Shown here: positions 1,713 through 58,617 of the stretch, piece by piece
Layout: each line of letters begins with the position of its first letter
How positions within the stretch are numbered: the stretch's first letter is position 1
Source of the DNA: Ctena decussata
Lineage: Eukaryota; Mollusca; Bivalvia; Lucinida; Lucinidae
Assembly: GCA_963989385.1 (NCBI GenBank)
Contig: OZ022502.1
Location: 8,152,501-8,216,500 of the forward strand
Direction: 5' to 3'
Length of the DNA: 64,000 nt
Notes under the pieces: model-generated
The model's input: the letters and a program-made list of their open reading frames with translations, nothing else
Database searches by the model: none
Told to the model about the DNA's origin: nothing
Made by a program: the position numbers and the translations under genes

Positions 1713-1753
1713 TGAGCCGCGATACGACAAAACCAACAAAGTAGTTGTGCGCC
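1713..1753 (+). repeat. Fragment of ~240-bp palindromic MITE (family A), insertion target of element 1
   Basis: Starts TGAGCCGCGATACGACAAAA and runs to the TGCGCC that forms the left target duplication. The sequence continues as CAGCG after the right duplication, as in intact family A copies, so the Polinton inserted inside this MITE. The remainder of the MITE is missing or diverged on the right. Confidence 0.8.
1748..1753. repeat. Left 6-bp target site duplication (TGCGCC)
   Basis: TGCGCC immediately precedes the terminal AGTAGTAAAGG and recurs exactly after the other terminus at 20188-20193. Six-bp duplications are the Polinton/Maverick signature. Confidence 0.95.
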
Positions 1754-2022
1754 AGTAGTAAAGGACGGCACTATGGCCACGCCCGTCCGGAGACTAAGTC
1801 CGCAACTTGGGGCAGTCTTGGGCCGGGCGTGGCCATAGATGACATCGCTTTAGTAAGCTTGAAAAGGCTAGTTTGAAATAACTTAGTCTTTTTCAAGAGT
1901 AAAAGTCTATGTAATATGGCATAGGAGATGTCTTAAGAGGCTATACAGTAATATGCGTCTGCTATGAGTCTCTTGGCCCTGTATCTCAAGACCTCACTAT
2001 ACCAGAGGCATAACTCTATAGC
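1754..2022 (+). repeat. Left terminal inverted repeat of element 1 (269 bp)
   Basis: Reverse complement of 19919-20187 with no difference found by eye. Contains an internal hairpin at 1771-1838 and the first copy of a 90-bp repeat at 1938-2027. Confidence 0.95.
1771..1838. repeat. Subterminal hairpin within the TIR
   Basis: CTATGGCCACGCCCG (1771-1785) faces its exact complement at 1824-1838 across a 38-base spacer. Because it lies in the TIR it is present at both ends of the element. Confidence 0.9.
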
Positions 2023-2169
2023 GTCAGTTGATGGTATGAGTTGCTGTGGCATACTCTTGTTCATTCTGTTCAATTTCTGAGGCTTTACAGTAATATGCGT
2101 CTGCTATCAGTCTCTTGGTCCTGTATCTCAGGGCCTCACTATACCAGAGGCATAACTCTATAGCGTCAG
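1938..2169 (+). repeat. Duplicated 90-bp block straddling the TIR edge
   Basis: Block 1938-2027 recurs at 2080-2169 (offset 142) with several substitutions. Copy 1 lies mostly in the TIR and matches the right TIR exactly. Copy 2 is outside it and has diverged. Confidence 0.85.
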
Positions 2170-2379: not shown

Positions 2380-2970
2380 TTACAACATCGTATACATTGG
2401 ATATTTCTTTGATAAACAATTGGTATATCTTAAGCATTTACAACTTTGAATCCTATGTTCAAAGAACTGGTCTGGTGGCGTTATTGTCTTTTTCACTGAT
2501 AAGTATAGTCTTCCATAATTCAAACTGAACCACATTTCAATGTCTCTGTCATTTTGGTATGGATCTTCTCCTGTTCCCATCAGGTTCTCGTGAATGGCCG
2601 TCTTCAGATCTAGTCCTCTGCTTAGCTGATGTAATATGTAGATACAATACATTCCACACACTTTACTCCATGGACTCTGAAGCATCTCTGTATTTTCTAT
2701 CCACGTCTTGGTATTTCTTTGTATGAATGGTAGAATGTAGTCTTCTAATGGTGGTTGTCCATATGAATCGAAGTAAATCGCCTTGTCATCTTTGAAGTAT
2801 AAGGCCACCCAATGTTCTCCTGGTTGGTCCGAGTCATCTGTATTAATGATGTATGCTTTCACATCCAGTGGCTTCTTCTGTGGCAGGAGATCCTTCGAGA
2901 CTACTTTGGCGTTCAAATGCATAAGTTGAGACGCCTTGGTCAGAAGGGCCGTCAGTTCTAGCGTATTCAT
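2380..2970 (-). CDS. Adenain-type cysteine protease (Polinton PRO)
   Basis: A 196-aa maturation protease of the adenovirus/ULP1 class, expected to cleave virion precursors during assembly. Visible catalytic pattern: His53 in GEHWVALYF, Asp68 in IYFDSYG, Gln98 upstream of the nucleophile, and Cys105 in WSKVCGMYCIYI. The order and spacing are as in adenain (His, Asp/Glu, Gln, Cys), and the length is close to adenovirus proteases. It is the last gene of the leftward virion block. Its first ~43 codons overlap the 3' end of the 246-aa gene upstream in another frame. Candidate substrates are the Gly-rich basic proteins in the same block. Family assignment is firm; activity is inferred. Confidence 0.93.
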   Translation of the reverse strand: MNTLELTALLTKASQLMHLNAKVVSKDLLPQKKPLDVKAYIINTDDSDQPGEHWVALYFKDDKAIYFDSYGQPPLEDYILPFIQRNTKTWIENTEMLQSPWSKVCGMYCIYILHQLSRGLDLKTAIHENLMGTGEDPYQNDRDIEMWFSLNYGRLYLSVKKTITPPDQFFEHRIQSCKCLRYTNCLSKKYPMYTML

Positions 2971-3587: not shown

Positions 3588-4910
3588 TCAGTAGTCTGTG
3601 ATGACTTCTCTCAAACCGTTGATTTCTATTAGGTTGTCAAACTCTGCATATACTATGACGTTGATGGTCTTGCCGAGTGCTCTAGCAAACTGAAGTTCCA
3701 CTCGCAGGTTGCCGGTTTTTATAGGATGTAGATGGCTCTGATCGGCTCCTTGGTCTGGCGTGAAATCGTATCCCCAGAAGCAGTATCCACCTTTGTAGTC
3801 GTCGTAGTCGATGTTACAATTCTGAATCTGATTTTGACTGCCCAAAGCTTGATACAGAGACATGTAAGATCTGAGATATTGATCCAAGTTAAATTTCGGT
3901 TCAAATGGTTTTCCATAAATGCTGTGACCGTCACAACTCACTTCAAGTTTGCTGAGACCGAAATGTTTGAAGTTGAAAGGATTTGTGGCGAACGATCCAT
4001 TGAATGTTGCATTATCTACCATGCCAATGAATAATCGTTTTGGAAGTTGTCCCTGAAACAAGTGGTCCTCGACTTTTGATCTAAGACCGGTGCCTATGGT
4101 AAATGTCTTAACTTCTACACGCCGTATGGGAAATTTTGCATTGTGATGTGCAATAGTTTGATTGAGATCATTGGCTATGGCTGGCAAAAGTTGAACATTG
4201 CGAACCGATAAGACTGCTGCATCGATCTTAACCATAACAGGGTACTCATCCTTAGACATGATACAAAATTGAGGAGAAGCACGATTGAGACGAAGTCTTA
4301 ATTCTATTCCATTAGGTAAATATTTTTCCTGCATGGCCAAATCTAGATGTAAACGCCCTTGAAGTTCCTTAGGGTTACTTAGTTCAAAAGGGGTTATACG
4401 GGCTGTTACATTGCCATGACCAAAATCTTCAAAGTGACCAGGTTCATCTTCGTACCAAAATTCTGCAGCTTTAAGTTGATTGTCTTTCACATCAGATCCA
4501 AAAGAAAATAAGTTTTCAATGTAAGCCCTGTAGGGATACGTATCCATATTACTGGTCACCAGTTTATTGTTAAGATATAGATCAATTCCACTAAACATAC
4601 TGTGAAAGAAGTTGTTGATGGGAGCAACTTTTTTATCGTTCTCAAGATTGTCACCGTTTGCTCTCAAAATCCTGAATTTCAAGTACAAATAAGTTTGTGA
4701 TAAATCAGTGTAATATTCCGTATGGCCTGGTACCACAAATTCGATGGGTGCATGATAACTGTCTAGAGAAGCTATGGGATGATAATCTATCCACTGAGAA
4801 TCTTGCATGGTGGTCAGAGTTGGAGGAACAGTTTGCATGTCTATTTCAGACTTGCTACATTCACAAGATCCACTTTGCATCATTTTCTTAGTCAAAAATA
4901 TCGCGGTCAA
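3588..4910 (-). CDS. Major capsid protein, double jelly-roll (hexon-like, Polinton PY)
   Basis: A 440-aa protein of the F54H12.2-like family widespread in invertebrate genomes, which corresponds to the Polinton major capsid protein. Recognisable features are the N-terminal HTEYYTDLSQTYLYLKFRI strand region, NNFFHSMFSGIDLYLNNKLV, and a C-terminal GNLRVELQFARALGKTINVIVY segment. The rest is beta-rich without signal peptide or TM. It would form the trimeric capsomer of an icosahedral particle. It overlaps the pX-like gene upstream by 23 bases. The start may be an internal Met (10 or 11, or MQTVPPTL), because the first residues are poor in structure. Confidence 0.9.
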   Translation of the reverse strand: MTAIFLTKKMMQSGSCECSKSEIDMQTVPPTLTTMQDSQWIDYHPIASLDSYHAPIEFVVPGHTEYYTDLSQTYLYLKFRILRANGDNLENDKKVAPINNFFHSMFSGIDLYLNNKLVTSNMDTYPYRAYIENLFSFGSDVKDNQLKAAEFWYEDEPGHFEDFGHGNVTARITPFELSNPKELQGRLHLDLAMQEKYLPNGIELRLRLNRASPQFCIMSKDEYPVMVKIDAAVLSVRNVQLLPAIANDLNQTIAHHNAKFPIRRVEVKTFTIGTGLRSKVEDHLFQGQLPKRLFIGMVDNATFNGSFATNPFNFKHFGLSKLEVSCDGHSIYGKPFEPKFNLDQYLRSYMSLYQALGSQNQIQNCNIDYDDYKGGYCFWGYDFTPDQGADQSHLHPIKTGNLRVELQFARALGKTINVIVYAEFDNLIEINGLREVITDY

Positions 4911-6503: not shown

Positions 6504-7577
6504 TTATACAAGATCGGATTCCAAAATCCAACTGTCAAATTTGGATGGATAACCTTTCCAGTGAACTTTAATTTCTTTGACCCACTTTTTCCCAACTTTT
6601 CGTTTACGACGATCTAAGACAGATTCTATTTCGTAAATTTGATCTTTGTCCACACGTTGTAATTCTTGCGAATAAAAAGTACCTTTTATGAGTTCCCCGT
6701 CTAGATCTTCTATTTTATAGGTAACGGGACTCTGACTTTGTATGACACCCCTAACCTTAAACAATTCTTGCGTCCAGTTTGGTAAATAACCTTTTTCAAA
6801 AGTGCGTTTTGTTTTGTTGATGCGCACAAAATCACCCACTCTTAATTCAGGACTTGCAACTTTTTGCTTTTTGCCGTACAAAATTTGGGATACTTGAACT
6901 TCATTTTTGACATCGACAGATGCAGGCGTACGTTTAATGCTGCGATGATAAGCATGATTGTACCCGTGAACTAATTTTGGAAGTACATCGACATATTTCA
7001 GTGTACGATTATGAGTAAAATATTTCCACATGCGACTTTTCAGAGTTCTTTGAAACCTTTCTACAATACTTGCTTTTGTTTCTGGATTTTCTGTCGTGAA
7101 AAAATGAATATTTTTAGATTTCAAGAACTTTTGAAACTCTTTATTTTTGAATTCCGTACCTTTATCAGTTTGCAAACTTTTTGGAATACGTCCATGTTTC
7201 AAAACAGATTTAAAAGCTTCCACCAAAGTTTTTCCAGATTTGTCTTTGATCGGTACAACCCAGGCGTATTTTGAAAATACGTCTATCAAACAGAGCAAGT
7301 AACGATATTTGTCGTTATATTTTGCCATACTAGATACGTCTGCCAAATCTCCCTGCCATTGATAATCTATTCCTGCCACCACAGTTTTGCGACGCACAAA
7401 TTTTCTACGTATGGATTTGTGCAAAGTGTAAGTTTGTTGTTTTCTTAACCAAGTTTTCACATCGTCAAGTTTGATTTTCTTTGAAATTTTCTTTGCTGCT
7501 TTATACAAAGCTTGCAACCCCGTATATCCCACGGGACTTTTAGGATCGTAATAAAGTTTTGATAATAATTTATTCAT
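6504..7577 (-). CDS. Integrase, retroviral type (rve) with C-terminal chromodomain
   Basis: A 357-aa DDE integrase that inserts the element and makes the 6-bp duplications. Catalytic residues are visible: Asp77 in WQGDLADV, Asp138 in LQTDKGTEF and Glu173 in ASIVERFQR (34 residues between the last two, as D,D-35-E). An SH3-like ELRVGDFVRINK segment follows near 245. A chromodomain spans 314-357 (YEIESVLDRR to KVHWKGYPSKFDSW), with the aromatic residues expected for methyl-lysine binding, so target choice may favour marked chromatin. The start codon overlaps the stop of the upstream gene (ATGA-type junction). It appears intact. Confidence 0.95.
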   Translation of the reverse strand: MNKLLSKLYYDPKSPVGYTGLQALYKAAKKISKKIKLDDVKTWLRKQQTYTLHKSIRRKFVRRKTVVAGIDYQWQGDLADVSSMAKYNDKYRYLLCLIDVFSKYAWVVPIKDKSGKTLVEAFKSVLKHGRIPKSLQTDKGTEFKNKEFQKFLKSKNIHFFTTENPETKASIVERFQRTLKSRMWKYFTHNRTLKYVDVLPKLVHGYNHAYHRSIKRTPASVDVKNEVQVSQILYGKKQKVASPELRVGDFVRINKTKRTFEKGYLPNWTQELFKVRGVIQSQSPVTYKIEDLDGELIKGTFYSQELQRVDKDQIYEIESVLDRRKRKVGKKWVKEIKVHWKGYPSKFDSWILESDLV

Positions 7578-8398
7578 TGTTCATCATAAGATAACCATTT
7601 TCTGGGTGATTCAAACAGTTCTTCTTTTATAGGTTTGATAGAACTGGGTGTAAACAGTTCGTCTCTGATATGTTTTCTAGTGGCAGACAAACTTTGAGAT
7701 AAGTCTTTCTTGATGTGTTTTCTAACCGATTGTGTAACGGGACTTGTTCTTTTTTTAAGAGTAGGCATGCGTCGATGTTTGGTTTTAGGAGTGACATACT
7801 CTTCTTCATCTTCGTGCTGAAGAGGAGTACGATGCATCCATTCCCATCGTTTCTTATTTCCCACAAAATCTTGAGGCACGTTCATGTCTCTAAGAGCCTC
7901 AGCAAAAGGTTCCCAACCCCTGGGCTCAGTGTCTTTTCTCTGTCTTAAAACATCATTGACTAAATCTATGATATTAGACCCTGCAACCGGTTTGCCATAC
8001 ATCTTAACCGTTCCGTCTTCGTCCCAAGATAAGTTAGGATTATTTTCTAACCAAGATATCAATAATTTAGCTTTCTTTCGCATCGTGGTAGGAACACTAT
8101 CAAAAATACGTTGATTAATTTTCGATTCAGGCTCTACTGGGAGAGAAAGTTTTGTTTCTGTCAGTGCTTTGCGATGTGCCGTTTTAAATTTATGTAAAGT
8201 TTGACCAAATAATTGAGATTTTTCTGCCTCTGACAAATCTTCGTTGGCCATGACCGAAGACAAGTCTCTTTGAAGACTGGCCGTCGCAGAAACATTTGGA
8301 TCGGGTGGAAGTCTTGGTTTTTGAATTTGTTCTTCTTTCCAGCGTTTCATGTCTTCCCAAAGTTTAAATGGTACCACGGCCATTTTACGCCCTTCCAT
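7574..8398 (-). CDS. Conserved Polinton protein of unknown function
   Basis: A 274-aa protein. The N-terminus (MAVVPFKLWEDMKRWKEEQ after a short leader) and the middle segment (KKAKLLISWLENNPNLSW, then GSNIIDLVNDVLRQ) are of a kind I associate with invertebrate Polintons, but no function is known to me. The C-terminus is basic with repeated VRKHIKKDL and TRKHIRDEL units, suggesting nucleic-acid or capsid contact. Packed between the integrase (4-base overlap) and the pVI-like gene. The start at 8398 or the ATG five codons later are both possible. Confidence 0.75.
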   Translation of the reverse strand: MEGRKMAVVPFKLWEDMKRWKEEQIQKPRLPPDPNVSATASLQRDLSSVMANEDLSEAEKSQLFGQTLHKFKTAHRKALTETKLSLPVEPESKINQRIFDSVPTTMRKKAKLLISWLENNPNLSWDEDGTVKMYGKPVAGSNIIDLVNDVLRQRKDTEPRGWEPFAEALRDMNVPQDFVGNKKRWEWMHRTPLQHEDEEEYVTPKTKHRRMPTLKKRTSPVTQSVRKHIKKDLSQSLSATRKHIRDELFTPSSIKPIKEELFESPRKWLSYDEQ

Positions 8399-9788: not shown

Positions 9789-10472
9789 TTATACTGGAAA
9801 ATACACAACTGGACCCTGTTGATCCGATTTTGTATACCAGTTTGTAAAAATATCTGTTCTAAACCTCAAATGATTTGGTGTGTCTGGTTTTAAATCAATC
9901 AGTAAATAACCGTGTGGCTTAGAAGTGGCATCGTTGAAGGCAGACATCAAGTGTGGAGCTTGAAGTTGTTGTGCCAAAACTTTAATTTGCATTTTGTCTC
10001 TTGGACTTTGAAACAAAATCAAGTAATGGGCATTCAAACTGATGGTACGTGTCGATTTACTCTGCTGAAACAAGTTTTGTGTGATGTACACAACACTTGC
10101 ATTTCTGTGATGACCTTTCCTCGTGAACCAAAGTTTAATTTTTTCTTCGTCTTTGTCGCCCAACATATCGTCAAAGACAGTCAAGTGAGTTTCACTCGTG
10201 TCTGTGACAATATCGTCGTCGTCATTTGGAATTCCTAAAATAAATCTGATGTTTAAATCTTTGCGTTCTTGCAAGATATTGTACACAGGTTGCCATTCTT
10301 TGTAACACCACACGATACGTTGTGGTAAAATATCAAACAAGTCTTCTTTGTACTGAATCAGTTTTTTAACAAATTCAGTTTTTCCCGATCCACTTGGACC
10401 CGATATAAAAATATTAGCAGGATGTTTAAAAAACAAACTACCAATATTTTCGTCTTGAACTGTTACCGACAT
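9789..10472 (-). CDS. DNA-packaging ATPase (FtsK/HerA, A32-like)
   Basis: A 227-aa ATPase that would drive genome packaging into the capsid. Walker A is GPSGSGKT (residues 25-32) and Walker B is LTVFDDMLG. A downstream ITQNLF segment is the Gln-containing sensor region typical of A32-like ATPases. The length is normal for Polinton ATPases. It is the first gene of the leftward virion block. Upstream is a TATATATA sequence about 40 bases before the ATG. It appears intact. Confidence 0.93.
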   Translation of the reverse strand: MSVTVQDENIGSLFFKHPANIFISGPSGSGKTEFVKKLIQYKEDLFDILPQRIVWCYKEWQPVYNILQERKDLNIRFILGIPNDDDDIVTDTSETHLTVFDDMLGDKDEEKIKLWFTRKGHHRNASVVYITQNLFQQSKSTRTISLNAHYLILFQSPRDKMQIKVLAQQLQAPHLMSAFNDATSKPHGYLLIDLKPDTPNHLRFRTDIFTNWYTKSDQQGPVVYFPV

Positions 10473-10634: not shown

Positions 10635-13600
10635 TTACAGTACATATCCATACGGAACAGTTTCTCCACTTTTTAAAATCACACGTTTGTCATAAGTAAA
10701 TCTATATGTCTTAGATTGTCTCTCAGTCGTAATTTTTCTGTCTTTATGTTTTCTTATACGGTGCTGATATTCCACAGATTCTTGAAAGTCCCTCTTCTCA
10801 CTATGGGCCCATTCCATCATGTTGTAGAAATGGATTACTTGTGAAGTATTGTAATCCAGGGTCAGTCCTTTGACTTTACAGGTAGACTTGCGTTTCCCAG
10901 TATCGTGCTCCACATACTCGTAGCCATAATTCTTCGGTCCCATACCCACAAACTTGGTGATTTTCGCAGTAGGTAGTTCGTCTGTCCATTCGCCGAGTCT
11001 GTTGTTGATGATCTCTGGATTCCATAATTCTGGTTTGTGAATGTAGATGACAGAATCCGTATCGAAGTACAACACACGTTTGTCAAGTTGATGCAGGACA
11101 CTGTATAACTTCAGTCTGGCTTGTGCTGTCACAAAGGATCCTACCACCACGTTGCTGCAAGCATGAGGTTCTACAATCGATTCCAGATCTTCCCAGTTGA
11201 CTAACAAAAACTCTTCTCCAAACACTTCGACATTCTTCACTTTCTTCAATGGATTAGTCACCAGTTCAAAGTAGTCAGAAGGATCTGACACATATTCTGT
11301 TTTGGTCATGTTGTCTCTCTGTGCTAATTTTCCCCACAAACTGTTTAAACTGATTTTGCTGATTCCACGTCGACCTTTGTTCTTTTCCACCTTCTCTAGT
11401 CTGATACCTTCTGCTTCGAAATAGTCCTGTTTGAATTTGATCTTGTCCAATTCTGTCTTGCACCAGTCGGGATAGCCACTTGACTCTTGTTTAATCTTCA
11501 GGAAAGTATCGATATATCCAGCAAAGATACCTCCTTGTCCAGTTGACTTGTCGTACTGTGAAGATTGGGGAAAATGCCATACTTCGTACACATCTTTCAG
11601 CTGGTAACCCAGTTTCATCGCCTCAAACAATTCGATGCTCACCCAAGTTCCCACTAATTCTCTGTCTTCTTCTCTGTCGTGCGTACATAATTTCGAATTG
11701 TCAGATGTCTCTGCACAACTTCTACAGAGTGGAAACAGTAATTTGTTGTTGCACTTGTACGGTAATACCGGATGATACAAGTTTCTGGGTGGTAACACTT
11801 TACATTTGATCAGTCCAAAATATTGATGTATATTGTCTCTGTCGATGTCTTCTTGTGAATAAATTTCTGGATGTCCAATAGGGAAGATTCCGTACTTGCA
11901 GATGTATGGATAAAGTGAACACACATCGATATACTTAATTTCCTCGTCTCCTTCAATTTCGTAAAACAGTCTTGTAGAATTCGTACGTCCTCCAAATAGC
12001 GCATCTCTGGGTTTGAGTGGATCCAAGTTGGTAAATTCTGCATCCACCATCTCCTTAAAATCTTTGTCGTCTTGATAATATTGATCGTAATCGCATTCCC
12101 ACATTTCTATCACTTGATACCCAGCTCTTTTCAATTTCTCGGTCTTCTCCACAGTCTGTTTGTATAGCTGGTACATCGTCTGGCAGTTGTAAGTATTGAT
12201 CTTAGTTCTGTCGGGGAAATGTTTGGGACACCCGTGCCAGTAACATCCATGGAACTCGTACACTGTTTCTTTTTCTGGATCGTACCCATCCACATAATGT
12301 CCAAAAACTTTCTGTTCACCACCATTCAAAGCGTGACGAATTTGGATGTGATTCTTTCTAGCCACGGCTTGAATCCAGCGCACAGCTTTGATAGAATACT
12401 TCTTTTGGTTGGGATAGCCTTCTGGTGGAATGATGGCCACAGAGTTTTCAGGCATGTGATTCTTCCTCCATACTTGGGAACAAGCTTGAGCGATCGTGCA
12501 TGCATTAGAAAAAGGATCCAAGTCGCTGATATCTATCGATTGTTTTCTAAAACATGAACAACCTCTCCTCAGGATATCTACATCGCTGCGACAGTATTCT
12601 TCCATTTCACTTCTGAAGTCAAAGATGGCATTGGATTCCACTTTCTGCTTGTGCCATTCCAGGAAAGTTTCTCTGTCTTTGACCGACATCTGTCCAGGAT
12701 TGTACATCTCCACGGGAAAGTAAGGTCCCACGTAATTCTGGTTGGCATCAACATTTGCCAAATGTGGGAAATAGCCTTTCTTCATCTGTGTTAATCCAAA
12801 GGTATCTGGAAAATTGGCTAATCTCATATGCAGAAAATGATACGAGTCCAAGAACTTGACTTTGGCAGCAGTCATCGTCACGATAGTATTTCCATTCATA
12901 ATCACATCGGGCTTAAAAGTTCCATTTTCTAGTATGTAGCGTAGAATAAATTGTCCATCGTATCCTCCAAAATTATGTGCAATAACAGTCACTCCTTCAT
13001 TTTCTTTTCTAAATAACCAGGAACAGAAATCTGACAACGTATTTTCGCCTTCAAAGATCATTTCTCTTCCAAACTGACTACAATTGTCACAATGCCGATC
13101 TACAGGTAAATTAACGCAATGGTCACACGCTTTGTTTGTGAACTTATTACAAATTTTACATGGCTGTTCAATAGGTAAATCCATACACTGATCACAAGCT
13201 CTATGTGCAATACAAAAGTTGACAATATGTTCGCCAGAGTCTTGCTTGGATTCAAAGTCAAAAAATATGAATTGAGGTTGAATAACGGTACCTTTCTCTT
13301 CATCGATGATATCGTCCTTCTCGGCATCTTCTTCCAACACTTCGGTCTTGGGTTTGCACACGTAAGGTTGAATATAACATTGATGTTCGGCTCCAACAAT
13401 CAGTTTACAAAATTTACATTTCTTCTGTCCTGGACACACGTGATTTCTTTTATATCCTATAATCCTATTTCCACATTTCTCACAATTATGCACAAGTTGA
13501 CAAATAGATTTTTTCTGTCCTGGTTTGACTAATGTATGATTAGCAAAACAAGATGCACTATGAAATGTTCTCTTACATTTTGTACAGTACTGATTTTGTT

Positions 13601-14732
13601 CGTGAAGACATGGCGTTGCACTATAACAACTAGTACATCCATTCAAACAAGCATGATCCTCTCTATGATTAAATCCCTTGTCACAAAACTCACAATAATA
13701 ACTACATCCTTGAAATCCTTTGACATTGGTGATAGTGTCATAGTGATCTGTGCCATTGTAATAGATATGAATTACTTTTGTTTTGTCACTAGGTCTAAAT
13801 CCAAGTGGAAACAATAATCCGTCTTTAGGATGCTGTGAATGTACTTTGATCAAATAGTCAGGAGCTAACACAGTTTGAAATTTCTTGTATTCTTCAAATC
13901 CACAAGGTTGATTGTGAGGAATCTTAGCACGATCTAATAATTTCATGGCTTCTCTAGTTTGTAGCGGTCTGTCAGAATTTCTCAGATGATGCCAAGTTTT
14001 CTTCCATGAGTCAGATGTGTCCCTGTCGGCATGATGTTTTCCTACCACAACAGCTCTAGCCATACACATGACATCTTTGGTGTTGTTGATTTGAACAATA
14101 CTATGTTTCATCTTTCTCATATTGCGTGATTCAAAGTAAAGTCCATGGTGTAATGCCTTTCTTCCACTTCCAGTTGGTAACTTGGTGTGTGTCACTTCCA
14201 AGCTCATCTGTCCATCATTGATTTTAAAATCTTCATTGGATTGCAACACTTTCTCGATTTCTTGAGTCAAAGATTCCCCAGTCAGACTCGTCACATCTGT
14301 AAATGGTACAAAGATTCCTAATTTCAGTCCGGGATGGTAAATGCTCATTCGAATCCTGTCATTGCCTTGAGCTTGAGAATGGGACTTGATGTCATCCACC
14401 AGCTGTTGAAACATCCGAGGTACAAATTCCAGCGGTGATACATCTTCTGGAAATTTATTGACATCCACATTGTACACATTGGCTCTTGTTCTGAAACGTC
14501 TCGACTCACGTTCTCTAACAGGCTTGATTACATAGTACTGTTGGTAATCGTCTTCTTCATCGTCCGAATAAATCACCATAGGCCTTTTTCTTGGTGGTGA
14601 CACCTCATCTTCAGATTCTTCACTGTCGGAATAATCCACAAGTTTCACCTTCTTTGGCGATGGTAACTCGTCCTCCTCAGAGTCTGATGAAGTGGGTGGG
14701 GTACGTATTCTCTTCCAATGTCTCTTTGGCAT
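10635..14732 (-). CDS. Protein-primed-type DNA polymerase B of element 1
   Basis: A 1365-aa replicative polymerase, intact. The N-terminal ~80 residues are acidic, Ser-rich and disordered. A Polinton-type N-terminal region follows (about 85-330), then a Cys/His-rich stretch (344-553) with several zinc-finger-like pairs that breaks around the exonuclease. Exonuclease motifs: FDFES (Asp492, Glu494), HNFGGYDGQF (Asn587, Asp592) and YCRSDVDIL (Asp717). A segment at 811-835 (VDGYDP, then YEFHGCYWHGC) has the D...ExxGxxWH pattern of Vsr-like nucleases. Palm motifs: YIDVCSLYP (Asp936), SKISLNSLWG (Lys1126 to Gly1134), YFDTDSV (Asp1224, Asp1226) and GPKNYGYEY (Lys1267). Transcribed from its own TATA box. 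Confidence 0.95.
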   Translation of the reverse strand: MPKRHWKRIRTPPTSSDSEEDELPSPKKVKLVDYSDSEESEDEVSPPRKRPMVIYSDDEEDDYQQYYVIKPVRERESRRFRTRANVYNVDVNKFPEDVSPLEFVPRMFQQLVDDIKSHSQAQGNDRIRMSIYHPGLKLGIFVPFTDVTSLTGESLTQEIEKVLQSNEDFKINDGQMSLEVTHTKLPTGSGRKALHHGLYFESRNMRKMKHSIVQINNTKDVMCMARAVVVGKHHADRDTSDSWKKTWHHLRNSDRPLQTREAMKLLDRAKIPHNQPCGFEEYKKFQTVLAPDYLIKVHSQHPKDGLLFPLGFRPSDKTKVIHIYYNGTDHYDTITNVKGFQGCSYYCEFCDKGFNHREDHACLNGCTSCYSATPCLHEQNQYCTKCKRTFHSASCFANHTLVKPGQKKSICQLVHNCEKCGNRIIGYKRNHVCPGQKKCKFCKLIVGAEHQCYIQPYVCKPKTEVLEEDAEKDDIIDEEKGTVIQPQFIFFDFESKQDSGEHIVNFCIAHRACDQCMDLPIEQPCKICNKFTNKACDHCVNLPVDRHCDNCSQFGREMIFEGENTLSDFCSWLFRKENEGVTVIAHNFGGYDGQFILRYILENGTFKPDVIMNGNTIVTMTAAKVKFLDSYHFLHMRLANFPDTFGLTQMKKGYFPHLANVDANQNYVGPYFPVEMYNPGQMSVKDRETFLEWHKQKVESNAIFDFRSEMEEYCRSDVDILRRGCSCFRKQSIDISDLDPFSNACTIAQACSQVWRKNHMPENSVAIIPPEGYPNQKKYSIKAVRWIQAVARKNHIQIRHALNGGEQKVFGHYVDGYDPEKETVYEFHGCYWHGCPKHFPDRTKINTYNCQTMYQLYKQTVEKTEKLKRAGYQVIEMWECDYDQYYQDDKDFKEMVDAEFTNLDPLKPRDALFGGRTNSTRLFYEIEGDEEIKYIDVCSLYPYICKYGIFPIGHPEIYSQEDIDRDNIHQYFGLIKCKVLPPRNLYHPVLPYKCNNKLLFPLCRSCAETSDNSKLCTHDREEDRELVGTWVSIELFEAMKLGYQLKDVYEVWHFPQSSQYDKSTGQGGIFAGYIDTFLKIKQESSGYPDWCKTELDKIKFKQDYFEAEGIRLEKVEKNKGRRGISKISLNSLWGKLAQRDNMTKTEYVSDPSDYFELVTNPLKKVKNVEVFGEEFLLVNWEDLESIVEPHACSNVVVGSFVTAQARLKLYSVLHQLDKRVLYFDTDSVIYIHKPELWNPEIINNRLGEWTDELPTAKITKFVGMGPKNYGYEYVEHDTGKRKSTCKVKGLTLDYNTSQVIHFYNMMEWAHSEKRDFQESVEYQHRIRKHKDRKITTERQSKTYRFTYDKRVILKSGETVPYGYVL

Positions 14733-14791: not shown

Positions 14792-14813
14792 TCTATCAGC
14801 ACCAAGATTAGTC

Positions 14814-15105
14814 AGGCGAGATACATGGTACATGACTTATCAGGTTAGACTACATGTTCTATGGAATTCTTGTGATACAGGCAAGATTCATAGTATTTGA
14901 CTTAGCAGGCGAGACAACAGGAATTTTCGTGGTACAGGCGAGACATGGGCTTTACGGAATTTTTGTAGTAAGGCGAGACAACAGTCTTAAGGAATTTTTA
15001 TTAACTAGCAGGCAAGACTACATGCTATATGGAATTCTTATCACCAGGCGAGACACATAGAATTTTTGTGCTACAGGCGAGACACTAGTTTTACGGAATT
15101 TTTGT
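14814..15105. repeat. Irregular array of AGGCGAGAC repeats upstream of the polymerase promoter
   Basis: AGGCGAGAC or a 1-2 base variant starts at 14814, 14842, 14879, 14907, 14936, 14971, 15010, 15046 and 15075, with spacings of 28-39 bases. Most units are followed by a GGAATTTTTGT-like half. The array sits between the polymerase TATA box and the GC-richer island, in the turn between leftward and rightward transcription. This is a plausible site for an origin or enhancer. Confidence 0.85.
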
Positions 15106-15119
15106 TATTTTTAAAAGAA

Positions 15120-17694: not shown

Positions 17695-18328
17695 ATGGAA
17701 AGTAAACCTGTGGATCCAAGACTTAATAAATACAGTGATGCCAACAGTATTTATTATCACTGCACAGCATTGAAGAAACTTTTGAAAGAGAATGACAGAA
17801 AATTAATTCAGCCATTGGAAATTTCACTAAAAGAACAAGGCCTGTTGAAACCACCCTATGGTTATTGCTACAATTGTGGGTCGGTGGATCATTGGACTGC
17901 CTCGTGTACCGAGGAGAAGAAGAAAACTACTACAAATAAACCACCCAATGGGAATTGTTACAACTGTGGTTCACCTGATCATTGGACTGCCTCATGTACC
18001 GAGGAGAAGAAGAAAACTACAAAGAAGCCACCGTATGGTACCTTGTTACAACTGTGGCTCGCCTGATCACTGGCTACCCTCATGTCCTCATACCGACTTA
18101 CAAGATGAAAGCTCGGGATCACCACAACCGGCCGAGAAGTCAGAAACTACGAGGAAAAGACGCCATACTGATGATGACTCTGATGTACCCAGTAAAAAGA
18201 AGTCAAGAACGGCTTCACCAGAACCGACAAAACCTACTGCTAGACAACATAAGAAGAAGAAATACTGTGTTGTGTGCAAAGAAGACACTCATATGATGAA
18301 AAACTGTCCTGAAATAGTGAAAAACTAG
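17695..18328 (+). pseudogene. CCHC zinc-knuckle protein gene with a frame break
   Basis: Nucleic-acid-binding type protein. Three CX2CX4HX4C knuckles lie in tandem ~25-30-residue units: CYNCGSVDHWTASC, CYNCGSPDHWTASC, then a third copy just after the frame changes. A Lys/Arg-rich segment with an NLS-like KKKSR follows, and a fourth knuckle (CVVCKEDTHMMKNC) is at the C-terminus. The first frame ends at 18066; the continuation to 18328 is in the frame one base over. The change falls around 18040-18046 inside the third repeat. It could be a true mutation, an assembly error or frameshifting. CCHC repeats recall retroviral Gag but no other Gag feature is present. Confidence 0.75.
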
Positions 18329-18455: not shown

Positions 18456-18520
18456 ATTGTTTTTAAAGTATTTGTTTTTTGTTATTTCATAAGGTTACTC
18501 TTTAAACGAAAGAGTTGGGT

Positions 18521-18536
18521 AGCCCTGAAAAGGGCT
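18521..18536 (-). terminator. Histone-type 3' stem-loop (gene 18560-18754)
   Basis: The minus strand reads AGCCCTTTTCAGGGCT, a 6-bp stem with a TTTC loop matching the replication-dependent histone mRNA stem-loop, followed by ACCCA. It begins 23 bases after the stop codon. A purine-rich AAAGAG follows about 17 bases further, in the place of the histone downstream element. Confidence 0.85.
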
Positions 18537-18548
18537 GTTTGGGTGTTC

Positions 18549-18575
18549 TAAGTCTTCACTTACTGTGAAGACTTA
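18549..18575. repeat. 11-bp-stem hairpin over the stop of the small leftward gene
   Basis: TAAGTCTTCAC and its exact complement flank the 5-base loop TTACT. It contains the stop codon and last codons of the 64-aa gene and lies just upstream of the histone-type stem-loop. Confidence 0.85.
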
Positions 18576-18754
18576 GACACAGGTTTTACAATCCCCACAA
18601 CAGGATTCGTCTTTGATAAGTCGATCCCTCTCCTCCTCATAAATACTTCAAATCCCATCTTATTTTGCTGCCTTTCAACTTCTTTCCAGTCTTTCTTCTT
18701 AAAAGCTTTACACAGTCGGCTGAGATCAAAAGGGATATACTTTGACAAACCCAT
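18560..18754 (-). CDS. Small basic accessory protein (64 aa)
   Basis: A 64-aa protein starting MGLSKYIPFDLSRLCKAF, with a Lys/Arg-rich middle (KKKDWKEVERQQNK and FMRRRG). Not recognised. It is supported as a gene by its setting: TATA box about 30 bases upstream, a CCAAT sequence and the GACGTGAAAGA motif beyond that, and a histone-type stem-loop just after the stop. A small basic protein in a histone-like transcription unit invites comparison with chromatin proteins, but no histone fold or protamine pattern is visible. Confidence 0.7.
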   Translation of the reverse strand: MGLSKYIPFDLSRLCKAFKKKDWKEVERQQNKMGFEVFMRRRGIDLSKTNPVVGIVKPVSKSSQ

Positions 18755-18782
18755 ATTTGAGAATGAAGTTGTTAAAGGCAGT

Positions 18783-18791
18783 TAAATATAT
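18783..18791 (-). promoter_or_regulatory. TATA box for the 64-aa gene
   Basis: The minus strand reads ATATATTTA about 30 bases before the ATG, leaving room for a very short leader. Confidence 0.65.
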
Positions 18792-18807
18792 GTATTGACT
18801 CATGGCG

Positions 18808-18842
18808 GACGTGAAAGAGAGCATAGCCTCTTGACCAATCAA
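18808..18842 (-). promoter_or_regulatory. Shared GACGTGAAAGA motif and CCAAT box
   Basis: GACGTGAAAGAGAGCA (18808-18823) recurs as GACGTGAAAGAAAGCA at 19335-19350, 15 of 16 identical. A CCAAT box (GACCAATCA, about 18833-18841) lies further upstream of the same TATA. This is a histone-promoter-like arrangement of CCAAT plus TATA. Confidence 0.6.
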
Positions 18843-18911
18843 AACTATGCAAAGTAGTTATGGGGTTTTATGCAACAATCAACAAAGTATTTCTTTCTGA
18901 TAAGTTGTGGT

Positions 18912-18927
18912 GGCCCTGAAAAGGGCC
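18912..18927 (-). terminator. Histone-type 3' stem-loop (gene 18952-19281)
   Basis: The minus strand reads GGCCCTTTTCAGGGCC, an exact match to the animal histone mRNA stem-loop consensus GGYYCTTTTCAGRRCC. It starts 24 bases after the stop codon, is followed by ACCACA, and then by CAGAAAGAAA about 12 bases on, matching the U7 snRNA-binding downstream element in type and position. Confidence 0.9.
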
Positions 18928-18951
18928 GTTTTGAGGTTTTAATAAACCTTT

Positions 18952-19281
18952 CTATGAGCAGGGACACCGCGAGGGCCTGCCACCACAAGCTGGACAGCGT
19001 ACTGACCAGCTCGTGTAGGTCACAGTCCTCTCTGCCGGCAGATAGAATGGTGGCTGGTCCGCCTCCCTCTCCCAATCTTCACCGGATGGTCGTTCTTCAG
19101 GCTCTTGCTTCACTTCTTCGGGCTCTTGCTTCACCACAGCCATCTGTCTGTCGACCGTCACCATCCTTCTTACGATGCCTATCAGCTCTACGAGCCTCTC
19201 TGCACTCTCCATTACAGACCTAGTCTGTGTCTCCAAAGCATCGAGATATTCGTCGCTCAACATCTTCTCTGTGTATAGCAT
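18952..19281 (-). CDS. Accessory protein with tandem VKQEPEE units and Cys-rich C-terminus
   Basis: A 109-aa protein. Residues 1-50 are helical (EYLDALETQTRSVMESAERL). Two consecutive VKQEPEE units follow, each a psi-K-x-E sumoylation consensus, then a polar linker and a C-terminal SVRCPACGGRPSRCPC whose four Cys could bind one metal ion. No family recognised. It is divergent with the 135-aa gene at 19418 and its mRNA ends in a histone-type stem-loop. A nuclear regulatory role is a reasonable guess only. Confidence 0.68.
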   Translation of the reverse strand: MLYTEKMLSDEYLDALETQTRSVMESAERLVELIGIVRRMVTVDRQMAVVKQEPEEVKQEPEERPSGEDWEREADQPPFYLPAERTVTYTSWSVRCPACGGRPSRCPCS

Positions 19282-19315
19282 AAAGACAATGTGACGAAGT
19301 GGGTCAGTGTTCCAG

Positions 19316-19389
19316 TATTTATTCTCTCAACACCGACGTGAAAGAAAGCACTTTTCTAAGTAGGTCAATCCGGTCTTGGGAGTATAAAA
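19316..19389. promoter_or_regulatory. Divergent promoter between the 109-aa and 135-aa genes
   Basis: Leftward TATA-like AGAATAAATAC (19314-19324, minus strand) about 35 bases before ATG 19281. Rightward TATAAAA (19383-19389) about 29 bases before ATG 19418. GACGTGAAAGAAAGCA (19335-19350) lies between them and could serve both. Leaders would be very short on both sides. Confidence 0.65.
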
Positions 19390-19417
19390 TGGCACTGACC
19401 TACTTACAACTTCAGTC

Positions 19418-19825
19418 ATGCAGCAACTACTGACCTTAGACGATCTTATGAAAGAACCAGACCTTCTATCGACGGCAATTAACTCAATTGCTACTGATGC
19501 ATCGTTAACTCAACAACAACAACCGAACGTGCAGACCTATTACTACCACCCACAGCAATCACAACTGCAACAAACACAGCCACAGGTGTCACAGCCAAAG
19601 ACGGGAGCTGTAGAAGTCTTGCTCAAAGAACTCAATGATCTCAAGAAAAGAGTACAGCAGTTAGAGGACCAAAAGCAACAACGTCCCATGGAATTAAATC
19701 CGATCAGAATACCATTAACTATAGAAGTAATGACACCAGAATCGTCTGTGACCGTACCAACTCAAAATGGACTTGGGGCGCATAGCAAGAACATAGATAA
19801 TTCAAAAAGAAAGAAGAAACAATAG
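19418..19825 (+). CDS. Gln-rich coiled-coil accessory protein
   Basis: A 135-aa protein. It has an N-terminal acidic/hydrophobic stretch (LLTLDDLMKEPDLLSTAI), a Gln/Tyr-rich middle, a short coiled coil (VEVLLKELNDLKKRVQQLE, about 66-85), and a Lys-rich C-terminus (KRKKKQ) that could be a nuclear localisation signal. This organisation resembles small transcriptional regulators, but no DNA-binding domain is recognisable. Its mRNA ends in a histone-type stem-loop 27 bases after the stop. Confidence 0.7.
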   Translation: MQQLLTLDDLMKEPDLLSTAINSIATDASLTQQQQPNVQTYYYHPQQSQLQQTQPQVSQPKTGAVEVLLKELNDLKKRVQQLEDQKQQRPMELNPIRIPLTIEVMTPESSVTVPTQNGLGAHSKNIDNSKRKKKQ

Positions 19826-19852
19826 ATTCTTCTTAGCTATAACCACACAAAC

Positions 19853-19868
19853 AGTCCTTTTCAGGACT
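19853..19868 (+). terminator. Histone-type 3' stem-loop (gene 19418-19825)
   Basis: AGTCCTTTTCAGGACT followed by ACCAA and, about 12 bases later, CAGAAAGAAT. Loop and flanks match the histone mRNA pattern; the second and third stem pairs differ from the consensus but remain complementary, i.e. compensatory change. Confidence 0.85.
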
Positions 19869-19918
19869 ACCAATTACATCAGAAAGAATACCCTACTGAT
19901 TGCCCTAATACTAAGGAA

Positions 19919-20187
19919 GCTATAGAGTTATGCCTCTGGTATAGTGAGGTCTTGAGATACAGGGCCAAGAGACTCATAGCAGACGCATATTACTGTATAG
20001 CCTCTTAAGACATCTCCTATGCCATATTACATAGACTTTTACTCTTGAAAAAGACTAAGTTATTTCAAACTAGCCTTTTCAAGCTTACTAAAGCGATGTC
20101 ATCTATGGCCACGCCCGGCCCAAGACTGCCCCAAGTTGCGGACTTAGTCTCCGGACGGGCGTGGCCATAGTGCCGTCCTTTACTACT
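19919..20187 (-). repeat. Right terminal inverted repeat of element 1 (269 bp)
   Basis: Reverse complement of 1754-2022, ending CCTTTACTACT at 20187. Confidence 0.95.
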
Positions 20188-20193
20188 TGCGCC
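20188..20193. repeat. Right 6-bp target site duplication (TGCGCC)
   Basis: Exact copy of 1748-1753, directly after the terminus. Confidence 0.95.
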
Positions 20194-51967: not shown

Positions 51968-53407
51968 TTAATAAATCTCGTAAATAAGTAGAGCAACTAG
52001 TCCTACAACGACGCCCCCGACTATCAGTGCTGTTTTTTGGTTTTCATGTTCTTCAGCAACAGTTTTTGGTGTGGATCTCAGTACTGGATGGGTGTCAGGT
52101 TTTGGTATTTTCAATGACTTTTGTGAGTCAGTCGTGACATTTTTTGTGATAGCCTCATGTTTTGTTTTATATATCTTCTGTGCCTGTTTCTCGGTGGGTA
52201 TCGTTATTGGCATTCCAAGTGCTCCTATTATGGTTTTACCCTGGGCAGCTAAAGGCATTGATCCAGGTTCTACATCAACCTTTGGTTTGTGTGTTGGGGT
52301 CCCACTCACATCAGTGTAAGATGTGGCATTGGCAGGAAGGTTTACGGTTTTGTTCCACCATAACTTTTGATTATGAGTAGAGAGTACAATCTCGTTGTTG
52401 TAATTTTTTATTGTCCCGATTTGCAATTCCATATTGCTTGGAGCCATGTAAAGGCCATAGCCAAAAACATAGTCAACCTTGCTCCGGGCGTACTTCAAAG
52501 TATTTTGATAACGGGTAATTTGACTTGGTAAGTCTATTGGCCTTTGGACTCCATCTTCAACGTTTGCAAGGAATTCCTTCTGGGCATCAAAAGCTGAGCC
52601 TATCCCTAGTATGTCAGATTTAATCTGAGACTGAGAGCCTAGAATGGCCCAACAGTAAGTCCTTATTGAGTCATTTATTCGTTCAACGCCGGGTCTTGTA
52701 AAGCCATCTGATTTGTCGAGAATAAATGTAGTCCAGGCCTTGGGAAAACTTTGTGCAATGTAGTCAATGTGATAAACATTATCAGGATGATTCCTTGAGA
52801 ATGAATATAATTTATTATCATATTCACCTACACCTTTGACCGCCTGGTACCCAGTGTTTGTTACATACCAGTATATAGTCCCTAATCCGCCATTGTCATC
52901 TTGGTTTTGCCTCCAGTCGGTATGAACTGAGACTCCAAACTCGTCACAGATCCTCTCATAGGCCTTCTTGTCATAACTGTTGTCAAACGCATTCCAGCTG
53001 TCATCTGTTGGTAATGCCACTTTCATTTCGAATAATATTCTTCGCGTTTGATAATACACATGAAACAAAAACAATGAACGTGCAAACAGTGGAATAGTGC
53101 CTGTCAGGTGGTCTTGCATAGAAACGCCGCATCCTGTAGTTGCGCACCACAAAGCAAAATTTATCTGGTTTTGCCAAAACTGCATTTGGAGTGAACGCCA
53201 ATTTTGGACGATGGCATCACTTTCAACGTAGGGCAGCACGTATTTTGCGAAGATGTCAGGGAATTTCACATCAAAGCCGCTTGGACTGTCTGAGGCCTGT
53301 TTGACTTCTATTGTTTGGTTAATGATGTCTAGGTTTTTTGTGTTGTAAACTCCAGATGGTTGATATTGTGCGTTGGGGTTGTATGAAAATGCTTTGATTT
53401 GCACCAT
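51968..53407 (-). CDS. Large membrane-anchored virion-like protein, unknown function
   Basis: A 479-aa protein. Most of it is a soluble, aromatic-rich region (FWQNQINFALWCATTGCGVS near 78-97, and a WGYGL/FGYGLYMAPSN region), followed by a Pro/Thr/Lys-rich stalk and a C-terminal TM span (TALIVGGVVVGLVALLIYEI). No signal peptide. Tail-anchored topology in a capsid gene cluster suggests a surface or internal-membrane virion protein. Diverges from the penton-like gene across 38 bases. Confidence 0.7.
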   Translation of the reverse strand: MVQIKAFSYNPNAQYQPSGVYNTKNLDIINQTIEVKQASDSPSGFDVKFPDIFAKYVLPYVESDAIVQNWRSLQMQFWQNQINFALWCATTGCGVSMQDHLTGTIPLFARSLFLFHVYYQTRRILFEMKVALPTDDSWNAFDNSYDKKAYERICDEFGVSVHTDWRQNQDDNGGLGTIYWYVTNTGYQAVKGVGEYDNKLYSFSRNHPDNVYHIDYIAQSFPKAWTTFILDKSDGFTRPGVERINDSIRTYCWAILGSQSQIKSDILGIGSAFDAQKEFLANVEDGVQRPIDLPSQITRYQNTLKYARSKVDYVFGYGLYMAPSNMELQIGTIKNYNNEIVLSTHNQKLWWNKTVNLPANATSYTDVSGTPTHKPKVDVEPGSMPLAAQGKTIIGALGMPITIPTEKQAQKIYKTKHEAITKNVTTDSQKSLKIPKPDTHPVLRSTPKTVAEEHENQKTALIVGGVVVGLVALLIYEIY

Positions 53408-53445
53408 TTTTATAACAATGATTTTTTATATTATCAAATAAAAAA

Positions 53446-54090
53446 ATGCATCTAATAATTTCTGATATGAGCAATCCTGTAATCCTGCAACAGTATATTG
53501 ACAACAGAGATGGATTCAAGCGGGTGGGATTAAACAGTTTTACATACTGTTTGGGTTGGTATAATGTTCATAATGAAGTCATTCAAAAACAAGGCGAGGC
53601 TCCTGTTCGCATAACGCCTGGGTATTATAGTTTTCAGCAGTTAGCAGATATATTTCGCAGCCATAAAATCAGTATGTCTGTAGATGAAACCAACGGAATA
53701 GTGACTTTGACTACACCTATTGAGTTAAAAATAAGCAAAAGACTCAAGAAAATGCTTGGACTCCAGATTAAAGGCCGTTTTTTTCCAAAACACATTTATC
53801 AAGGTGAAAAGCCGCTGGACTTTGCTGTTATAAAATCTTTGTATGTTCATTTGTCGGAAATAAATTCATCATATAATTACTTTAATGGCTCACCGAGTGA
53901 TGTATTAGCAGTCATTCCCATTGAAAATAAAAGCTTTGGTGATATTATCACTGTCCGCTTTGAACACCCAGAACTCAAGCCGTTAAAGACAGGGGCCTTA
54001 TCTGAATTGAAACTAGTTGTTAAAGATGAAAATAAAAACACGGTAGACAATCATGGTTTGCCCATGAGTTGTGTTTTAGAAATAATTTAA
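53446..54090 (+). CDS. Penton-like minor capsid protein of element 2
   Basis: A 214-aa beta-rich protein. RITPGYYSFQQLADIFRSHK, KISKRLKKMLGLQIKGRFF, LYVHLSEINSSYNYF and VLAVIPIENKSFGDIITVRF are the pattern of the minor capsid/penton group in this Polinton lineage. Either the first ATG or the Met at 53467 could start it. The ATG is directly preceded by TATCAAATAAAAAA, almost identical to the sequence before the major capsid ATG. Confidence 0.75.
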   Translation: MHLIISDMSNPVILQQYIDNRDGFKRVGLNSFTYCLGWYNVHNEVIQKQGEAPVRITPGYYSFQQLADIFRSHKISMSVDETNGIVTLTTPIELKISKRLKKMLGLQIKGRFFPKHIYQGEKPLDFAVIKSLYVHLSEINSSYNYFNGSPSDVLAVIPIENKSFGDIITVRFEHPELKPLKTGALSELKLVVKDENKNTVDNHGLPMSCVLEII

Positions 54091-54108
54091 TTTTCATTTC
54101 ATATAATA

Positions 54109-54486
54109 ATGAGCATTTTTGGTGCGAAACTGAGAGAAGATGTTTTAGAAACAACTCTAAATATGGATGGTAAACGCATAATCAATGTAGCTTACCCTCG
54201 AGATCCAGATGAAAATGCGGCGTTTAACGGTCACGTGGTAACAGCAAAGGCTTTAAATGATTTAAGGAAACATTTGCTACACGAAGTGTTACAACGTCAT
54301 ACTGATAATGTTATGAATGGTAGATTAGATATGACCCAGCATCGAATTTCTGGTCTTGCGAGTCCTGTTAATCCTGATGATGCAGTAAATCAAGCCTATA
54401 TTACATCGAGGTTGCAGACCATAACGAATTTACTAAACGAGTTTAATAAACGTATTAATAATTTGGAAAAAAATATAAAACAATAA
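54109..54486 (+). CDS. Tail-fibre-like short protein
   Basis: A 125-aa protein with two copies of a fibre-type repeat: LNMDGKRIINVAYPRDPDEN and LDMTQHRISGLASPVNPDDA, then a C-terminal coiled coil (LLNEFNKRINNLEKNIKQ). The M-x-G/Q-x-I-x-G/N-x-x-x-P-x-x-x-x-D-A motif is well known from phage tail fibres and occurs in some eukaryotic dsDNA viruses. Probably a trimeric host-contact or vertex protein; this role is inferred. Confidence 0.72.
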   Translation: MSIFGAKLREDVLETTLNMDGKRIINVAYPRDPDENAAFNGHVVTAKALNDLRKHLLHEVLQRHTDNVMNGRLDMTQHRISGLASPVNPDDAVNQAYITSRLQTITNLLNEFNKRINNLEKNIKQ

Positions 54487-54489
54487 AAA

Positions 54490-55143
54490 ATGAAACCGCC
54501 AACGGCTCCTTATCAGGATTTGGGAGATGAGAAAATTTATCCGGATTTGTCTAAAGACTGTCAAAACTATCGCTTACAAAAAATATCAGAAATAGAAAAG
54601 CAATTAATAAGAGAAAAAGATGTTAGAAAGGCTTTATATAAAAAATATAAACGCGGAGTCAACCTCACAGACGGCGTTGATACTGCATTGATTTCTGCAA
54701 GTGTCGTTATGGCTGGAATAGGCCTGGCAGTGCCAGTGATGCTGCCTTTAGAAATTGTTGCAATTGTCTGCGGATGCATGGGCGCCTGTGTGAAATTGGT
54801 GAGACGTAAATTAATGTCAAAGGCACAAAAGCACTATGAGATTAAAACTATTGGAGAAAGTAAGTTGAATTCTGTCAAAAATTTGATTTCCAAAGCCTTA
54901 AATGATGGACGGATATCAGAACAAGAATTTAAGATTGTTCTTGATGAGCTGGACAGATATAATGATTTAAAAGATAAAACACACACCAAACAGTCTGGTC
55001 TGAGTGAGCAAGAAAAACAAGCTTTGATAGACAAAGGAGAAGCCAAAGCGCTAGAGCTAATCAAAAAAAAAGATAAGCGCCACATAATTTTGTTCAACAA
55101 ATTTGTGTTTGTGAATGATCCACCACCAAAATATCAAAATTAA
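54490..55143 (+). CDS. Membrane-hairpin protein of unknown function
   Basis: A 217-aa protein. N-terminal coiled-coil-like helix (ISEIEKQLIREKDVRKALYK), KYKRGVNLTDGVDTAL, then two adjacent hydrophobic spans (ASVVMAGIGLAVPVMLPLEI and VAIVCGCMGACVKLV), then a helical, charged C-terminus. This layout recurs in Polintons of this lineage, but its function is unknown. Three bases after the fibre-like gene, A-rich leader. Confidence 0.7.
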   Translation: MKPPTAPYQDLGDEKIYPDLSKDCQNYRLQKISEIEKQLIREKDVRKALYKKYKRGVNLTDGVDTALISASVVMAGIGLAVPVMLPLEIVAIVCGCMGACVKLVRRKLMSKAQKHYEIKTIGESKLNSVKNLISKALNDGRISEQEFKIVLDELDRYNDLKDKTHTKQSGLSEQEKQALIDKGEAKALELIKKKDKRHIILFNKFVFVNDPPPKYQN

Positions 55144-55162
55144 ACACTTCCGGTTGACCTAC

Positions 55163-56476: not shown

Positions 56477-56518
56477 TATTTATTTATTGAATAAAAATAT
56501 ATTTGTATCAAATAAAAA

Positions 56519-58510: not shown

Positions 58511-58617
58511 TGATACTCGAACTAATAACAATTGCTTCTGCCGCTGTGAATATCTCAGTCGGATGTTTGATTTTTTTCATTTATTTTAAGTTAAAATATA
58601 TTTTCCAAAATATAAAA

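Follow-up and report, generated by a model that had tools for sequence, protein, structure and literature searches.

The analysed stretch of DNA (64,000 nucleotides (nt), hereafter the window) derives from the lucinid bivalve Ctena decussata (assembly GCA_963989385.1, contig OZ022502.1, positions 8,152,501 to 8,216,500) and harbors a mobile element of 18.4 kb, element 1, which is assigned by its gene content and termini to the Polintons/adintoviruses. Close to its right end, three small open reading frames (ORFs), g64, g109, and g135, are each followed by a hairpin of the type found at histone 3′ ends; this stem-loop is the mark of replication-dependent histone mRNAs. The ORFs, the stem-loops, and the candidate downstream elements are located as follows:

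18560..18754 (−), g64, 64-aa ORF, without Pfam match
18521..18536 (−), stem-loop 1, after g64, AGCCCT-TTTC-AGGGCT, 23 nt past the TAA of the 64-aa ORF
18498..18503 (−), AAAGAG purine core, candidate histone downstream element of g64, 17 nt past the stem
18952..19281 (−), g109, 109-aa ORF with a predicted long helix, an acidic stretch with VKxE-type repeats, and a Cys-rich C-terminus, without Pfam match
18912..18927 (−), stem-loop 2, after g109, GGCCCT-TTTC-AGGGCC, 24 nt past the TAG of the 109-aa ORF
18891..18899 (−), CAGAAAGAA, candidate histone downstream element of g109
19418..19825 (+), g135, 135-aa ORF with short N-terminal helices, a Gln-rich linker, a predicted helix (residues 62–86), and a basic C-terminus, without Pfam family at cut-off
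19853..19868 (+), stem-loop 3, after g135, AGTCCT-TTTC-AGGACT, 27 nt past the TAG of the 135-aa ORF
19880..19888 (+), CAGAAAGAA, candidate histone downstream element of g135

An earlier note on this DNA had claimed a histone-type cis-architecture for three viral-type genes, with stem-loops 23 to 27 bases past the stop codons and a purine-rich element further on. In the window letters, the sites and strands of all three hairpins were exactly as claimed, the gaps measured 23, 24, and 27 nt on the coding strand, and a purine-rich element was present at three of three loci. On the strand of its own ORF, each hairpin has AAAC before it and ACC after it. The architecture was upheld by a covariance model, by the comparison of element copies, and by one distant relative. 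In the covariance analysis with the Rfam model Histone3 (RF00032, gathering score 34 bits, E-values computed over 4227 Rfam families), stem-loop 2 scored above gathering (39.0 bits, E = 6.2e-8, span 18932-18886(−)), and the other two scored below it, each at E < 1e-3 (stem-loop 1: 29.6 bits, E = 2e-4, span 18541-18496(−); stem-loop 3: 27.9 bits, E = 9e-4, span 19848-19892(+)). The three matches are packed within 1.35 kb, and the Rfam scan gave no fourth Histone3 match at E ≤ 5 in the 64-kb window. Pfam searches revealed no histone match in g64, g109, or g135. The presence of three Histone3-type stem-loops after non-histone ORFs is confirmed.

The specific hairpin motif occurred three times in the window and in none of 100 shuffles. 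With a looser definition (any perfect 6-bp stem, loop TNT[CTA], ACC after the stem), three matches were counted in the element, whereas 400 simulated elements averaged 0.0075 matches and never had more than one; the only other match in the window, CAGCAA-TCTA-TTGCTG, lies outside element 1. The motif RGYCCTTTTCAGGRCYACC gave 382 exact matches in the 1.66-Gb host genome versus 0 for the reversed control pattern. At approximately three matches per copy, the genome probably contains more than 100 copies of the element. The failure of two of the three hairpins to reach the Rfam cut-off is the point that would fit an origin by chance; with no such cluster in shuffles or simulations, the genome-wide motif counts, and the Histone3 E-values, the probability of this explanation is practically negligible.

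Conservation of the hairpins was analyzed in element copies of the same genome, where the g109 protein gave at least 150 scored matches, fragments included, ranging from 100% down to 47% identity. Fifty copies were read, comprising 30 near-identical ones (L019–L048, with L040 being that of the window) and 20 that were picked as diverged (L079–L098). The exact 16-mers were kept in 43 (g64), 46 (g109), and 48 (g135) of the 50 copies, and all three together in 41 (28/30 near-identical, 13/20 diverged), mostly located 3′ of an ORF in the same size class as that of the window. When a relaxed filter was applied to the 20 diverged copies (one unpaired position allowed, AC required after the stem), 15 of them showed all three hairpins and the other 5 showed one or two. 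An alignment to the window was made for ten of the 20 diverged copies (not including L090, L096, and L097). In six of them, referred to as subfamily C (L091–L095, L098), all three hairpins were unchanged in 6/6 copies, at identities to the window of 0.52 for g109, 0.55–0.57 for g135, and 0.68–0.71 for the non-coding DNA outside; 10–12% of the non-coding 16-nt windows were identical to the window.

The earlier note had also argued for selection from compensatory changes in the stems. Such changes are present in two of six stem pairs among four sequences (the three stem-loops of the window and that of the distant relative L002, see below). The covariation itself gives weak support for selection on the stems: shuffles matched the four-sequence alignment in 22/500 cases for the covariation score, 96/500 for the number of changed pairs, and 421/500 for the pair types. 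Because the stems hardly vary among copies, the case for selection rests on their conservation versus diverged surroundings and not on covariation.

The host histone array was located on contig C14, and three 3′ ends were read there, one of an H3 gene and two of an H2B gene; the genes are presumed to be H3 and H2B from their C-termini. These ends carry AACGGCCCTTTTTAGGGCCACACA and gave Histone3 scores of 35.2 and 36.2 bits, which fall between those of the viral hairpins. In this comparison, which covered H3 and H2B, the host genes have a TTTT loop, an ACACA flank, and other downstream sequence, whereas the viral hairpins have TTTC and ACC; a recent origin of the viral hairpins by capture from the genes read is therefore disfavored. 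A host SLBP domain was detected as two pieces of SLBP_RNA_bind (PF15247), both over cut-off (62.1 and 40.5 bits), one of them with an internal stop as read without introns. The hairpins could be functionless relics of captured host histone 3′ ends, since host H3 and H2B carry the same stem-loop family and some old copies have damaged stems. This is extremely unlikely, given that the hairpins are unchanged in six copies with ~70% identical spacers, an upkeep beyond the spacer rate, and that the element carries three different stems with loop and flanks unlike those of the host H3/H2B genes read.

To search beyond this genome, prokaryote assemblies were scanned for the type-B DNA polymerase (PolB) of element 1, giving 98 stretches, three of which (L001, L002, L003) encode relatives and were taken as contaminants. 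The PolB of L002 shares 38% identity (best segment) with that of the window, and its probable capsid protein 30%. It contains a hairpin with a Histone3 score of 35.8 bits, above gathering, 28 nt past the stop of a C2H2 zinc-finger ORF of 89 aa; the loop is TATC, AAAGAG follows 15 nt past the stem, and AATAAA 70 nt past the stem. The zinc-finger ORF showed no likeness by eye to g64, g109, or g135 (homology was not tested). The stem-loop gene likely belongs to the Polinton-like element. Beside it, L002 encodes a 168-aa divergent TATA-binding protein (7189-7695 (−); PF00352, E = 1.2e-27; best PDB match a TATA-binding protein, E = 7e-20), which is possibly virus-encoded. In IMG/VR, no relatives of PolB, the integrase, or g135 were found by the scans made, and the phage collection yielded none for PolB. 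When IMG/VR was searched with three patterns of the motif that contain TTTTC, 0 matches were obtained. The motif with a TATC loop retrieved seven stretches, which were all scanned and are taken as chance because 7/7 were without a Histone3 match.

A role of the palindromes at the DNA level or as generic hairpins, such as a transcription stop, the insulation of convergent genes, or replication, would fit the location of short palindromes between closely packed genes. Such a role is very unlikely because the asymmetric TTTC loop, AAAC before, ACC after, and the purines downstream follow the coding strand at three of three loci, as they do in L002 with its TATC loop. In the list of palindromes of the window with a 6-bp stem and a 4-nt loop, the combination of AAAC, a T-rich loop, and ACC was not seen elsewhere.

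Downstream of the hairpins, the AAAGA(A/G) core begins 17, 15, and 14 nt past the stems of g64, g109, and g135, respectively, and CAGAAAGAA begins 12 and 11 nt past the stem at its two sites (g109, g135). At 6 of the 388 ACC sites of the element, AAAGA(A/G) lies 12–19 nt further on; the three hairpin loci should be among these six. The g64 core is the same hexamer, AAAGAG, as the purine core of the U7-binding downstream element described for mouse histone H2a in the available text of PMC7026596. A U7 pairing score was not used as evidence, as the 9-base U7 stretch had been derived from the downstream elements themselves, which is circular. Alternatively, the hairpins might titrate SLBP as decoys or raise translation without U7-directed cleavage. 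Stem and loop are indeed better kept than the purine element, and g64 of subfamily C is without AAAGA(A/G). The presence of AAAGA(A/G) 14–17 nt past the stem at all three window loci and in L002, versus 6/388 ACC sites, and the placement of the hairpins just past stop codons, which is that of the host H3 and H2B genes, make this explanation clearly unlikely.

With respect to conventional signals, no AATAAA or ATTAAA was found within 250 nt past the stop codons of g64 and g135. Downstream of g109, ATTAAA is located 9 nt past the stop, upstream of the stem-loop, and poly(A) use is therefore possible at this gene. The transcripts might have dual ends, with polyadenylation as the usual mode (in resting cells or for transcripts of integrated copies) and the histone route confined to S phase or infection. 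This would be in line with the signal at g109, with the AATAAA of L002, and with human H2AC18 and H4C11 pre-mRNAs, which carry both kinds of signals according to the accessible part of PMC9756948. The lack of such signals after g64 and g135 speaks against it, and we consider this explanation rather unlikely.

Taken together, the sequence signals suggest that the 3′ ends of g64, g109, and g135 of element 1 are probably of the histone type, made via the SLBP/U7 pathway, and not of the poly(A) type. For histone pre-mRNA, binding of the stem-loop by SLBP and cleavage by CPSF73 between this hairpin and the downstream element are established (PMC7026596, PMC9756948, PMC1924863). In the proposed scenario, RNA polymerase II transcripts of the three genes would fold the stem-loop just past the stop codon, and host SLBP would bind the folded structure. 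The purine element 14–17 nt downstream would be recognized through pairing with the host U7 small nuclear ribonucleoprotein (snRNP), and CPSF73 would cleave a few bases past the stem. The outcome would be short messages without poly(A), made and translated mainly during cellular DNA replication. We infer SLBP binding, U7 pairing, cleavage, the absence of poly(A), S-phase timing, and an early or regulatory role of the proteins.

A number of observations weigh against histone-type 3′ ends. Stem-loops 1 and 3 missed the Rfam gathering cut-off, and g109 has the upstream ATTAAA mentioned above. Stems are damaged in some old copies (L079, L081, L097), and the g109 hairpin of L079 carries one change. 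AAAGA(A/G) was missing after 8/43 (g64), 4/46 (g109), and 4/46 (g135) of the hairpins with AC. The triplet following the stem was ACT instead of ACC in 7/43 g64 and 1/46 g109 copies, and ATC or AGG in 2/48 g135 copies; both deviations, the missing core and ACT, apply to g64 in the subfamily C copies shown. In this subfamily g64 is 85–87% identical to the window, and its hairpin consequently sits in a more conserved region. L083, L084, and L086 keep the three hairpins with spacers that are 0.93–0.94 identical, which carries little information, and the element copies are of common ancestry and not independent. On the host side, the H3/H2B ends differ in loop, flank, and downstream sequence, and an RF00066 search in which 0/14 controls were detected gave no match for U7 snRNA either. 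The L002 contig is without mapped termini, so that its stem-loop gene could be flanking host DNA. The two other contaminant contigs gave no Histone3 match, L001 being cut within genes at both ends and L003 containing little more than PolB.

In comparison with the ends of metazoan replication-dependent histone mRNAs (RF00032; SLBP, U7 snRNP, CPSF73), the viral loci share the 6-bp stem, the TTTC loop, the A-rich 5′ flank and the ACC 3′ flank, the purine element 14–17 nt on, and the location of the hairpin 23–27 nt past the stop; they differ in that the genes are non-histone, that loop and 3′ flank are unlike those of the host H3 and H2B genes read, and that the processing is a predicted one. Element 1 resembles adintoviruses/Polintons (Mavericks) in PolB, chromodomain integrase, A32-like ATPase, the adenovirus-type protease match, terminal repeats, and 6-bp duplication, and differs from them in the putative histone-type 3′ ends, for which no description was found in the parts of the literature available. 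Likewise, no earlier report of histone-type ends on Polinton/adintovirus genes was found in the accessible portions of the open-licence literature. Zinc-finger regulators termed 'Ziftr' are described for some adintoviruses and a clam adomavirus in the accessible text of PMC11071296, the available main text of which does not contain the term 'stem-loop'. The L002 stem-loop gene resembles these regulators in being a zinc-finger ORF, of the C2H2 type. A Histone3 prediction of 14.7 bits inside a coding region has been given for SARS-CoV-2 in the part of PMC7786107 at hand; it concerns viral RNA too, but lies below the 34-bit cut-off and below the 27.9–39 bits of the element.

We tentatively suggest, as a possibility somewhat short of even, that animal adintoviruses of more than one lineage express their early regulators through the route of histone mRNAs. 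In that case, no such message would exist in the absence of SLBP, the host's S phase would be read directly via 3′-end processing by the virus or transposon, and the regulators would be kept apart from poly(A)-type late genes. Histone-type ends on non-histone genes of a mobile DNA virus would link viral genes to the cell cycle by a novel means, in which the virus borrows the host's DNA-replication-linked route of making messages. Such transcripts would escape poly(A)-selected RNA-seq, and early genes of Polintons could be searched for with the hairpin as a simple signature. Given a copy number probably above 100, RNA evidence should be easy to obtain.

The three proteins are probably early regulators, a label that is based on size, charge, and Gln-rich and VKxE-like stretches. 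Structure models of g109 and g135 predicted helices and disorder only, at low to middling confidence. Homologue searches, run for these two of the three proteins, yielded 10 homologues for g109 and 19 for g135. One g135 homologue and one PolB homologue derive from metagenome-assembled genomes of Candidatus Thiodiazotropha, and bivalves are the source of several of the named PolB relatives. Thiodiazotropha are lucinid symbionts. The remaining features of element 1 that were located are:

1748..1753, target-site duplication TGCGCC, left
1754..2025 (+), left terminal inverted repeat, starting AGTAGTAAAGG
2380..2970 (−), adenovirus-type protease, partial (residues 37–70), Peptidase_C5 23.5 bits, cut-off 21.3
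3588..4910 (−), candidate major capsid protein, 30% identical to an L002 ORF, E = 2e-64
6504..7577 (−), retrovirus-like integrase with C-terminal chromodomain, rve 52.6 and Chromo 29.5 bits, both over cut-off
9789..10472 (−), A32-like packaging ATPase, Pox_A32 26.8 bits, cut-off 22.8
10635..14732 (−), type-B DNA polymerase, 1365 aa, Pfam DNA_pol_B_2 157.2 bits
18450..18455 (+), AATAAA, ordinary poly(A) signal in the accessory region, 122 nt past the stop of the zinc-knuckle ORF
18808..18823 (+), GACGTGAAAGAGAGCA, motif between g64 and g109, common to 19335-19350, noted by eye without statistics
19335..19350 (+), GACGTGAAAGAAAGCA, same motif between the divergent g109 and g135, noted by eye without statistics
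19916..20187 (−), right terminal inverted repeat
20188..20193, target-site duplication TGCGCC, right

Both termini read AGTAGTAAAGG (at 1754 and 20187), and a 6-bp target-site duplication is a hallmark of Polintons. Together with PolB, the chromodomain integrase, the ATPase, the protease match, and the terminal repeats, this duplication identifies element 1, by sequence, as a Polinton/adintovirus. The chromodomain integrase is stated as an adintovirus feature in the available text of PMC11071296. A double jelly-roll major capsid protein is a further trait of this group; no capsid family was matched by Pfam for the ORF at 3588..4910 or its L002 counterpart. We take this ORF to be the probable major capsid protein from its size and its position only.

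A second Polinton-like element was found at 51968-64000 and runs off the window. It encodes an A32-like ATPase and an rve integrase without chromodomain match, and showed a weak capsid match below cut-off. Within its window part (from ~51,968), no Histone3 match was obtained.

In a genome-wide RF00032 search, 75 candidates were retrieved, all with 32.2 bits and with neither viral nor histone copies among them, and these counts were not used. Seventy-four of the 75 matches fall into a host tandem array on contig C4 (~9,057,373-9,220,948) with a spacing of mostly ~1.95 kb, and one lies elsewhere on C4. In the array unit read (L012, 1575-1895, minus strand), the hairpin is located past a 106-aa ORF without Pfam family. 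An assignment of this array as the host histone cluster was rejected, as the one unit read is non-histone and the histone genes form an array on a different contig; the array gene may be a second case of a non-histone gene whose 3′ end is of the histone type.

Within element 1, the 16-base motif GACGTGAAAGA(G/A)AGCA is common to both intergenic regions upstream of the stem-loop genes and may represent a common promoter element. A zinc-knuckle accessory gene at 17695-18328 (+) has an interrupted reading frame and AATAAA downstream. Near the start of PolB, at 14813-15107, repeated units of 14–61 bases were observed, several of which begin with CAGGCGAGA.

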